DNA of 32,528 nucleotides from assembly GCA_009698615.1 (NCBI GenBank), contig WLPU01000017.1:1-32528 (forward strand), given 5' to 3'. Position numbers and translations under genes: made by a program. Source of the stretch: Actinomycetota bacterium (GTDB lineage Bacteria > Actinomycetota > Actinomycetes > Nanopelagicales > Nanopelagicaceae). Below the pieces are notes generated by a model. It had not been told where the DNA came from, ran no database searches, and saw nothing but the letters and a program-made list of their open reading frames with translations. Of the stretch, positions 19,010 to 21,903 are shown piece after piece. Every line of letters starts with the position of its first letter. Position 1 is the stretch's first letter.

Positions 19010-19621
19010 ATGAATGAAACTTTGAAGGACTTGCAAGACCGATTGACAGACTGGTTCGATAGCCTGCATTTTTCAAGAGTTCAAAAACGATCTTTGGTAA
19101 TAGTCGCACTGATTGTTTGCCTCATTTCTGGAGCGCTGGTGTTCCGCGGAAACTCACAAAGTGTTGCAATCGCACCGCCGGTTGCAATATCGGCCCCACA
19201 ACTTGTAACAGTAGATGTCGCTGGTGGAGTCAATAAGCCGGGGGTCTATTCGATAGCAACAAGCTCGCGGGTGATCGATGCAATAAATGCAGCAGGTGGT
19301 GCTAAAACTGGGGCAGATCTCAGCGATATCAATTTGGCTCGCATTGTTAAAGATGGCGAGCAGATATATGTAACGCCAGTTGCTGTCGGAAGTAAATCGG
19401 CGGCAACGAGTATGCCTGCCAAGAAGGTGGGTCCGATCAATATCAACAGGGCTTCGCTTCGCGAATTCGATTCCTTACCTGGAATTGGCCCGGTACTGGC
19501 AATGCGGATATTTACTTATCGAAAAGTTTATGGGCCATTCACATCGATTGAAGATCTTCAGAAGGTTTCTGGGATTGGAAGCGCGAAATTCGCAGAATTG
19601 AAGAGCAAAGTACGAGTTTAA
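19010..19621 (+). CDS. comEA: ComEA family DNA-uptake protein
   Basis: ComEA binds incoming double-stranded DNA at the outer face of the membrane during natural transformation. The 203-residue protein has a cytoplasmic N-terminus, one membrane segment (about 26-46), a SLBB-like domain starting VTVDVAGGVNKPGVYSI (about 66-125) and a C-terminal double helix-hairpin-helix domain with PGIGP and SGIGSAKFAEL, the DNA-binding part. Length and layout are those of Gram-positive and actinobacterial ComEA. It is followed directly by comEC, whose coding frame starts at or before its stop. Confidence 0.92.
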   Translation: MNETLKDLQDRLTDWFDSLHFSRVQKRSLVIVALIVCLISGALVFRGNSQSVAIAPPVAISAPQLVTVDVAGGVNKPGVYSIATSSRVIDAINAAGGAKTGADLSDINLARIVKDGEQIYVTPVAVGSKSAATSMPAKKVGPININRASLREFDSLPGIGPVLAMRIFTYRKVYGPFTSIEDLQKVSGIGSAKFAELKSKVRV

Positions 19622-19716
19622 AAGATTATCGAGCATTAGTTCTTGGTTCTGCAATCTGGATTGGCGCGCTGAGCCAAAGTTGGATTTCACCTTGGCGCGT
19701 CACTGCATTCTGTGCT

Positions 19717-21903
19717 TTGGGCACAATTCTTAGCGCTCAACGCCGTAAAGGTTTAGCAGTTGTAATCGCGTTAGCTCTTTTGCTCGGATCAGGTGTTATG
19801 TCGCTTCGACAGATGAGCATTGAAAATTCGGCAACACGAAAGTTTATGCAATCAAATTCTGTGATGGTATTGCAGGTAAATACAGATCCCACTTTGACCA
19901 AGCCGAAAGTATTTGGCTCCACCCTTGCCCCTGATACTTACTCTTTTCTCGCAACTGCTCTTGGTGTTGGCGAGATGAGTATTGAATATCACTTGCGCAT
20001 TCCGATAAGGGTTATTACTCAGGATCTACGTGCAAGCACATTGTTACCAGGTCAACTTTTTAGGGCCAAAGGAACCCTTCGCCCAAGCAAAGAAGGACGG
20101 GTCGCCGGAATGTTTCTTGTACGCGGCGCTATTGAGGTGAAGACCCAAAGTTCGCGTTGGGCGCGCACCCTGGGTTCCATTCGGTTGCATCTTCGTGAAA
20201 TCAGCCAAGGTGGAGATGGCGGCGCACTCATACCCGGCATGGTGCTGGGCGACACTTCGTTGCAAAGTACACAGTTTCGTACTGCTATGCGTCGTTCAGG
20301 CCTGACACATCTCACCGCAGTCAGCGGTGCCAATTTTGCGATCATTTCAATATTTGTTCTTTGGTGCATGCAGTGGTTTTTTCGAACACTTCGCTGGCGA
20401 ATTATCGTTACCTCTATTGCACTAGCTGGTTTTATCTGCTTGGTACGTCCTTCTCCATCGGTCTTACGAGCTGCGGCGATGGCCAGCGTTGTTCTCTTTG
20501 CACGCGCTGTTGGCAAACGAAGTGACGCCTTAGCTGCACTTGGCTTTGCAATCGCGGCAGTAGTCATTGGCGATCCTTGGCAGGCGCGTGATCCAGGCTT
20601 TGCTCTTTCGGTACTCGCAACCTCTGGGTTGTTATTGCTTGCACCACGAATTCGTAAGTGGCTTTCAAAGTTCATTCCACTTTCGATTGCAGGAGCACTG
20701 AGCGTGCCAATTGCTGCAGTAGTGCTCTGCTCTCCGATATTGGTAGCCCTGTCTGGATACCTCGGCCCTATGACGATTATCGCAAATCTACTTGCAGCAC
20801 CAGTAGTTGCTCCTATTACCGTTCTGGGCTTTATTGCGGCGTTATTTGCTCCAAATTTTCCATTAATCGCCCACCTGCTCGTCAGCCTTATTCGGATTCC
20901 GGCAGCCTGGATTGCACTCGTCGCACAGCGCTCTGCTCGTTTTCCAGTCGTGGAAATCTCTACAGGCCTTACTGGATTTTTAGTTGCGTTTATTTTTCTT
21001 GTTGTGACAGCGATTGTTTTTATGAAACGAAAGAAACTTGCGTTGGTTGCCTTAGCATTTCTACTGTTGATTTCGTGGTGGGCGAAGTGGCCAGGACAGC
21101 AGTGGCAGGTGGCAAATTGTGATGTGGGTCAAGGAGATTCCATGGTGATCAATCTTGGAAACCATCGCGCCATAGTTATTGATGCTGGCCCAGATCCAAC
21201 TTTGGAGGAGCGATGCCTTAATCAACTGGGTGTTCGAGAAATTCCGCTTCTCGTCCTGTCGCATTTTCATGCAGATCACGTTGAAGGCGTTGCTGGACTC
21301 ATCAATCATCGACGAGTTTCCCAAGTTTGGGTGAGCAGTAATAGTGAACCGGCGTTCGAAAGTGCACGTGTGCATCAGTGGCTTGTCGGCGTTTCTTGGG
21401 TGGTTGTCACTGCTGGTATGTCCATGAAGATCCAGAGTCAGCGAGGCGAAATATTCGCCAAAGTTCTCTGGCCAGATGCAGGGGATCACTCATTTGGTGA
21501 TCTACCAGGGGATGGATCGGCTATAAATAATTCAAGTATTGCATTGACAATAAGTTCCATAGATTTTTCCCTCTTTAGCGGAGGTGATCTAGAGCCACCC
21601 GCCCAAGCCGAGATTGCTAGCGCTTTGTCGCATGTAGATATCTATAAAGTCTGCCACCATGGTTCGGCCTATCAAGATGCAACCTTCATGTCGCATTTAT
21701 CGCCTTCTGTCTCAATCATCAGCGTTGGGACGGGTAATAGTTATGGTCATCCCGCAGCGCAAACGATCCGATCGCTGACTAGACTCGGCAGTGTTATTTA
21801 CCGAACCGACCGAAGCGGCGCCATTGCAGTGAGTGCGCGCAAGCATCGCTTACAAGTTCGCACAAGTGCTGGTGCATGGTGGCAGAAAGTGAGGCTGGGA
21901 TGA
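19717..21903 (+). CDS. comEC: ComEC/Rec2 DNA-uptake channel (true start upstream of the first TTG)
   Basis: ComEC forms the membrane channel for single-stranded DNA import. From the first standard start (TTG 19717) the chain is 728 residues: an N-terminal DUF4131/OB region, a Competence domain of several membrane helices (about 175-455) and a C-terminal metallo-beta-lactamase-like domain with LSHFHADHVEGV. The frame stays open back to 19552, and 19621-19716 encodes a hydrophobic stretch (RALVLGSAIWIGAL and onward) that looks like the usual first ComEC helix. That region contains no ATG, GTG or TTG; ATT codons at 19588 and 19597 and a CTG at 19669 are the only near-starts. The stop overlaps holA. 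Confidence 0.9.
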   Translation: MGTILSAQRRKGLAVVIALALLLGSGVMSLRQMSIENSATRKFMQSNSVMVLQVNTDPTLTKPKVFGSTLAPDTYSFLATALGVGEMSIEYHLRIPIRVITQDLRASTLLPGQLFRAKGTLRPSKEGRVAGMFLVRGAIEVKTQSSRWARTLGSIRLHLREISQGGDGGALIPGMVLGDTSLQSTQFRTAMRRSGLTHLTAVSGANFAIISIFVLWCMQWFFRTLRWRIIVTSIALAGFICLVRPSPSVLRAAAMASVVLFARAVGKRSDALAALGFAIAAVVIGDPWQARDPGFALSVLATSGLLLLAPRIRKWLSKFIPLSIAGALSVPIAAVVLCSPILVALSGYLGPMTIIANLLAAPVVAPITVLGFIAALFAPNFPLIAHLLVSLIRIPAAWIALVAQRSARFPVVEISTGLTGFLVAFIFLVVTAIVFMKRKKLALVALAFLLLISWWAKWPGQQWQVANCDVGQGDSMVINLGNHRAIVIDAGPDPTLEERCLNQLGVREIPLLVLSHFHADHVEGVAGLINHRRVSQVWVSSNSEPAFESARVHQWLVGVSWVVVTAGMSMKIQSQRGEIFAKVLWPDAGDHSFGDLPGDGSAINNSSIALTISSIDFSLFSGGDLEPPAQAEIASALSHVDIYKVCHHGSAYQDATFMSHLSPSVSIISVGTGNSYGHPAAQTIRSLTRLGSVIYRTDRSGAIAVSARKHRLQVRTSAGAWWQKVRLG

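Follow-up and report, generated by a model that had tools for sequence, protein, structure and literature searches.

How is translation begun in a gene that has kept its N-terminal codons and has no start codon in front of them? The question is raised by comEC, a channel gene lying directly after comEA in a 32,528-nucleotide stretch of DNA (contig WLPU01000017.1, the whole of which is called the window here) from an actinobacterium of the Nanopelagicaceae (acI), an abundant freshwater group, with a genome of 1.50 Mb, in which this stretch is contig 9. The comEC frame, which is -1 relative to that of comEA, runs without a stop from 19552 to the TGA at 21901-21903 and holds no ATG, GTG or TTG before the TTG at 19717, as a preliminary description of the stretch had stated and as we confirmed on the window sequence, while the codons just past the comEA stop already spell a conserved N-terminus (K-D-Y-R-A-L-V-L-G-S-A-I-W-I-G-A-L). 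The missing start is real and far beyond chance. Of the five explanations first proposed, our comparisons favor a restart coupled to the comEA stop: with a probability of about 0.72, comEC would be made by ribosomes that restart at a four-base NUA(A/G) overlap without a recognisable start codon.

Junctions without a start codon in the family

When the comparison with relatives was run, the lack of an ATG or GTG at this place proved to be conserved, which is the outcome that had been linked beforehand to unusual initiation. Our sample of junctions is not random, as it consists of the best matches of several searches and of 40 chosen stretches. It drew on 60 genomes including the window's own (57 matched, 30 loci taken), on GTDB contigs (45 loci), on a further search limited to 30 of those 60 genomes, among them 20 from outgroup families (29 of 30 matched), and on a search of the whole family, in which 240 of 296 genomes matched and 30 loci were taken besides the chosen stretches. 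Both genes were present in 156 loci, giving 142 distinct junctions, 127 of which lie within the family (f1; its genus g8 was left out) and 15 in outgroups. A junction was called NTAR (R = A or G) if its four-base overlap took this form and no NTG codon occurred between the last upstream stop of the comEC frame and 15 nucleotides (nt) past the overlap. Such an overlap, with comEC in the -1 frame and without an NTG start, was found in 106 of the 127 family junctions, which form 101 clusters at >95% identity, cover 12 of the 17 genera, and end comEA with TAA (62) or TAG (44); 35 of these loci, on GTDB contigs that carry no family code, were placed inside the family by the tree. The ordinary NTGA overlap accounts for 11 family junctions, with GTG (10) or TTG (1) as the overlap codon, and for 9 of the 15 outgroup junctions, none of which is NTAR. 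The TTAA overlap of the window is the equivalent of this NTGA start/stop overlap of the outgroups. Three loci (L031, L057 and L072) come from metagenome-assembled genomes titled Streptomyces griseus or Bifidobacterium breve, yet their comEC is Nanopelagicaceae-like and the titles look wrong.

The same state is present in records titled complete chromosomes or chromosome assemblies (L038, CP015605.1; L054, OX376642.1; L055, NZ_CP016769.1; L068, CP015604.1), and therefore a local base error is excluded. With 105 other distinct junctions from independent genomes in the same condition, and no support found for a fault in assembly or sequencing, we give this once-proposed explanation next to no credence.

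The two states are in fact a single base apart, because one G-to-A change in the base common to both codons converts TGA to TAA and NTG to NTA together. On a ComEC tree of 141 rows, a quick tree with long branches on which any count is a minimum, at least four changes between NTGA and NTAR are needed. One locus (L092) entered this tree as NTAR among NTAR rows, but its -1 frame is closed and it is counted here with the junctions of neither type. NTGA is held by the outgroups, by genera g9 and g12, by two g7 loci (L270 and L272) and by one g17 locus (L281), a distribution that suggests either loss and regain or repeated loss.

Coding across the comEA stop

Judged from substitution patterns, purifying selection changes over from the comEA frame to the comEC frame at the stop. 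We compared 41 pairs from 38 loci, 75-97% identical, since a version with all pairs was saturated. The ratio of non-synonymous to synonymous differences (pN/pS) over the last 19 comEA codons was 0.10 (bootstrap 0.05-0.16) in the comEA frame versus 3.37 in the comEC frame; over the first 20 codons past the overlap codon it was 0.09 (0.03-0.16) in the comEC frame versus 1.80 in the comEA frame, and over the following 29 codons it was 0.17 in the comEC frame. From this purifying selection in the comEC frame past the stop, we conclude that the N-terminal segment is translated. The suspicion that the automatic start call, TTG 19717, is wrong was thus well founded: its column holds no conserved start and the codons before it are strongly selected, so that the refuting case set out beforehand, a ComEC truly begun at the matching residue, did not materialise.

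As to the open frame upstream of the comEA stop, it is indeed open in the window, but this stretch is comEA coding sequence and its substitutions follow the comEA frame. Upstream of the stop, the comEC frame is closed within 21 codons in 17 of 56 relatives, and 7 of 106 junctions have a comEC-frame TAA six codons before the overlap codon, with five codons left between them; a start shared by all members of the family can therefore not lie further upstream. On the other side of the stop, the stretch that separates the overlap codon from the first helix varies from NTA-DYR in 9 of 12 g2 loci and NTA-x-DYR in the window to NTA-ALF in 7 of 9 g7 loci, NTA-RSQLF in L287 and NTA-ASSHLF in L290. Since the spacing is variable and the four-base overlap constant, it is the stop, and no particular residue, to which coding appears to be tied.

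It could be argued that the main product is a shorter ComEC, begun at the ATG at +180 or at an internal NTG, and that the segment upstream of it is rarely translated or translated in some other way. That ATG is present in most aligned relatives (Table 1), and four g7 loci (L023, L273, L274 and L275), where an ATG lies 29 nt past the overlap, may well produce a ComEC that lacks the first helix. The low pN/pS ratios over the first 20 and the next 29 codons argue, however, that the segment is made in a functional form, and 25 of the 42 unaligned NTAR junctions have no in-frame ATG between +165 and +234. We therefore consider a short main product very unlikely.

A programmed -1 frameshift near the comEA stop, which would yield a ComEA-ComEC fusion and had also been proposed, deserves closer attention, because all 106 NTAR junctions place comEC in the -1 frame and a fusion would make a start codon unnecessary. 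In six g2 junctions (L240, L246, L247, L249, L253 and L254) the stop is preceded by TTT and then A or G, where slippage in the ribosomal P site is possible; the last comEA codon of these loci is TTA or TTG, preceded by T. In the remaining 100 of 106 junctions, however, the last comEA codon and its -1 counterpart are not slip-compatible by a simple test on the first two codon positions, slip sites further upstream having been judged by eye only. A stimulatory RNA structure was also sought as a candidate, and no conserved fold was found, RNAalifold returning an energy of 0.00 in five spans of 50 diverse junctions. Sister lineages, moreover, have a GTG at the same place, and the upstream stops mentioned above would confine any shift to five codons in 7 of the 106 junctions. 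A natural fusion was looked for in the outgroups, where a comEA stop was present in every locus with a comEA match (four outgroup loci had no such match in the stretch examined). On balance, we regard frameshifting as an unlikely origin of ComEC.

The positions on which these comparisons bear are collected in Table 1. The identity of the window gene is supported by domain models: ComEC matches the Competence domain PF03772 at 155.4 bits (cut-off 23) and the N-terminal subfamily model TIGR00360 at 66 bits (cut-off 36.5), and carries a metallo-beta-lactamase domain (Lactamase_B) besides, while against the full-length equivalog TIGR00361 it scores 157.5 bits (E 3.9e-46), below the cut-off of 190.05. 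ComEA reaches 90.1 bits with TIGR01259, under the cut-off of 152.35, and stands at the cut-off of TIGR00426. The order is comEA, comEC, holA, with comEC directly after comEA as expected of a ComEC/Rec2 gene; holA has a further in-frame ATG at 21876. A search of phages with comEC gave no matches.

Table 1. Coordinates, in the window, of the comEA-comEC junction and of the start codons considered for comEC
Feature	Position	Strand	Remarks
comEA (SLBB and helix-hairpin-helix DNA-binding protein)	19010-19621	+	stop TAA 19619-19621; domain matches
TTAA overlap of comEA stop TAA and comEC-frame codon TTA	19618-19621	+	proposed restart site
comEC as proposed, overlap codon to TGA (21901-21903)	19618-21903	+	frame; PF03772, TIGR00360 and Lactamase_B matches
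Conserved N-terminal codons (KDYRAL..GSAIWIGAL..W, first hydrophobic helix), no upstream NTG	19621-19716	+	
TTG, first standard start of the comEC frame	19717-19719	+	mechanical start call; not conserved in relatives
ATT inside comEA	19588-19590	+	rejected as comEC start; cut off by stops in 10/106 relatives
ATT	19597-19599	+	rejected as comEC start; not conserved
CTG within the helix	19669-19671	+	rejected as comEC start; not conserved
ATG at +180 from the overlap codon	19798-19800	+	possible start of a shorter ComEC form; in 53/64 aligned relatives
ATGA overlap of comEC stop TGA and probable holA start ATG	21900-21903	+	ordinary overlap, local contrast

Other genes and the case for restart

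The rarity of this situation was gauged by comparing genome G060 with 940 kb of genome G015, which gave 533 conserved pairs of open reading frames (ORFs), a subset of the genes. In 50 of these pairs the first NTG came five or more codons after the beginning of the alignment in both genomes. Sorted by eye and with no formal test, 47 of the 50 were either shadows of ribosomal RNA or cases where the alignment extended into upstream DNA and a normal start followed directly; one-sided misses looked ordinary, again by eye. Three candidates were left, namely infC and comEC, which have no NTG in either genome, and recX, which has none in G060 and shows GTG and ATG codons in G015. Where a gene in G060 ends in TAA or TAG and the downstream ORF spans this stop in the -1 frame, 61 of 63 pairs have an NTG within 20 codons, the exceptions being comEA-comEC and recA-recX; among 47 such pairs in G015, comEA-comEC is the single exception.

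In G060, recX (three RecX domains) follows recA (RecA and RecA_C domains). A search for this pair returned 12 rows, two of which (L301 and L302) are one genome, leaving 11 distinct genomes. In eight of them (L310, L300, L301, L303, L305, L306, L308 and L311) recX overlaps the recA TAA in the -1 frame, the four bases being CTAA, and its conserved part is preceded by no NTG; L310 is the window's own genome (contig 12, 53529-53984, minus strand); the other three (L304, L307 and L309) have an ordinary start. Codon +1, that is, the codon after the overlap codon, is ATT or ATC in all eight NTG-less recX genes, and therefore an AUH start (H, any base other than G) is as likely there as a restart at CTA. 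The infC gene is NTG-less in both genomes and has ATC as its candidate start (G060 ORF 666806-667403, plus strand; G015 contig C2, minus strand), with an AAGGAG site upstream of it in G015.

These genes bring up the possibility that comEC too is begun at a near-cognate codon away from the overlap codon, such as ATT 19588 or 19597, CTG 19669 or codon +1. AUH starts are present in the family, as the infC ATC and its AAGGAG site indicate, and codon +1 is ATT in 22 of the 106 comEC junctions, next to the eight of eight NTG-less recX genomes with ATT or ATC. No such codon, however, is conserved as a comEC start. Codon +1, which is AAA in the window, varies among 22 triplets across the 106 junctions, and neither it nor codon 0, the overlap codon, is conserved, so that an AUH start of the infC type, with a Shine-Dalgarno (SD) site, is not found in comEC, where no AUH is kept at codon 0 or +1. 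The three codons named in the preliminary description fare no better: ATT 19588 is conserved in 59 of 64 aligned junctions, which is explained by comEA coding, and is cut off by stops in others (Table 1), ATT 19597 is conserved in 12 of 64 only, and CTG 19669 in 16 of 64 only, and it lies inside the helix. SD-like 4-mers placed 4-18 nt upstream were found in none of the 106 NTAR junctions versus 4 of the 11 NTGA junctions of the family, and in the coupled genes of G060 they occur in 17 of 74 NTGA and 12 of 39 TAATG/TGATG pairs. A near-cognate start of this kind seems to us highly improbable for comEC.

Under the restart at the overlap that we favor, ribosomes that have just finished comEA would go on to translate comEC, resuming in the -1 frame at the four-base N-U-A-(A/G) overlap, whose codon is no recognised start (UUA in the window; UUA, GUA, CUA and rarely AUA in relatives). 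The restart would take place on the overlap codon itself or one or two codons away from it and would depend on comEA translation. It would probably be inefficient, and a few ComEC molecules per cell would be enough. Reading without a start codon has a measured precedent at a UAAua junction of Escherichia coli: the accessible text of one report gives downstream reading of 0.4, 0.3 and 1.5% in the three frames with active ribosome recycling factor (RRF), and of 17.2, 11.7 and 17.2% with RRF inactivated (PMC9955659). The low rate seen in E. coli might suffice for a low-copy channel. A stronger version, in which a codon-blind restart at the comEA or recA stop, possibly without initiator fMet-tRNA, is the sole normal route to ComEC and RecX, is more doubtful and is offered tentatively; if it were true, the stop codon itself would be the start signal.

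We acknowledge that several observations weigh against a restart at the overlap. Ten of the 127 family junctions fit neither NTAR nor NTGA; in two of them (L030 and L284) an ATG of a different frame is found further upstream, and two others have a GTG (L271) or a TTG (L092) just past the comEA stop. In the remaining six (L023, L273, L274 and L275 of genus g7; L250 and L259 of genus g15) the helix can be read from the NTAR codon with no NTG, but this reading is ended by a stop 22-23 codons on, and the main comEC ORF is in another frame, with an ATG at +29 in the g7 loci. The first base of the overlap shows no preference for A (T 33, G 33, C 32 and A 8 in 106 junctions), although AUA should pair best with the initiator anticodon. 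Among 53 comEA genes ending in Val, moreover, only two end in GTA, which is under the usage of Val codons (p 0.0005 or 0.016 with the usage of two genomes, values that are indicative since the loci are related). The machinery, finally, looks ordinary: the genes for initiation factor 3 (IF3) and RRF are each present in 10 of 10 genomes tested, and nothing special was found in the transfer RNA (tRNA) set of G060, which has one ordinary initiator. In E. coli, replacing AUGA by aUAA gave no coupled translation according to the accessible part of PMC9955659, and RRF depletion caused no reporter increase in any frame according to the excerpt of another study (PMC7538156).

Some of these points have details of their own. 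The helix of the six loci is well kept despite its early stop, and it may be a separate small peptide, may be joined to ComEC by frameshifting, or may have been lost from ComEC. GTG ends 23 of the 53 Val-ending comEA genes, which may be an inheritance from GTGA. An unusual initiator tRNA was considered as a candidate and rejected, since among the 41 tRNAs of G060 four have a CAU anticodon and one of these carries the initiator GGG/CCC stem; loss of IF3 or of RRF was likewise rejected, given the presence of both genes.

The proposed restart at the overlap and known systems

The closest known arrangement is that of coupled gene pairs with an NTGA (-4 nt) overlap, which comEA-comEC resembles in overlap length, in the -1 frame and in the position of the gene directly after the stop; the overlap codon of those pairs, however, is an NTG start, while that of comEC is an NTA and no start codon. 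In the accessible text of two papers the -4 overlaps are given as ATGA or GTGA, with start codons having G as third base (PMC10666635), and the motif is named NTGA (PMC12548453). A literature search, mostly without subscription journals, found no paper on a start anomaly or a frameshift at comEA-comEC. In the most probable account, the comEC overlap is a variation on NTGA at which ribosomes restart without a start codon. Both gene finders and the published rule for -4 overlaps assume a start codon, and the N-termini of ComEC, and perhaps of RecX, are likely misannotated in this freshwater group. The gene for the ComEC membrane channel is intact and strongly selected in 12 of 17 genera although its start codon is gone.

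The known non-canonical AUU/AUC start of infC, the IF3 gene, shares with comEC the absence of an NTG before a conserved N-terminus, but infC has retained an AUH codon (ATC), with the AAGGAG site in G015, whereas comEC has neither and sits on an upstream stop. As to NUA codons as such, Haggerty and Lovett reportedly described in 1997 an E. coli recJ mutant with a GUA start as a case of low-efficiency NUA initiation. That was a mutant of one gene, however, while the NUA of comEC is natural, common in the family and tied to a stop. The available portion of one later paper cites the recJ mutant as the only demonstrated case known to its authors (PMC6200909), and the recJ study is also cited in PMC2268962 and PMC9845219. 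The first of these latter two, as far as its accessible text goes, reports that in E. coli mutant initiator tRNAs matched to UAG or GUC allow reinitiation from these codons (PMC2268962), and reinitiation at non-canonical starts after a stop is described for a eukaryotic system in the excerpt of PMC4648390.

Programmed -1 frameshifting also gives a product in the -1 frame near a stop, as in comEC, but comEC differs: 100 of 106 junctions lack a slip site at the last codon, no fold is conserved, and sister lineages keep an NTG at the start position. The locus offers a natural test system for the debate on whether ribosomes that have terminated resume in place, scan or split, since it includes lineages one base apart, GTGA versus GTAA. 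The proposed restart also resembles the codon-blind restart of RRF-deficient E. coli as presented in the accessible text of PMC9955659, where translation is likewise resumed near a stop, with no start codon and in any frame; there, however, the restart is a leak or defect, whereas in comEC it would be the normal route, with RRF present.

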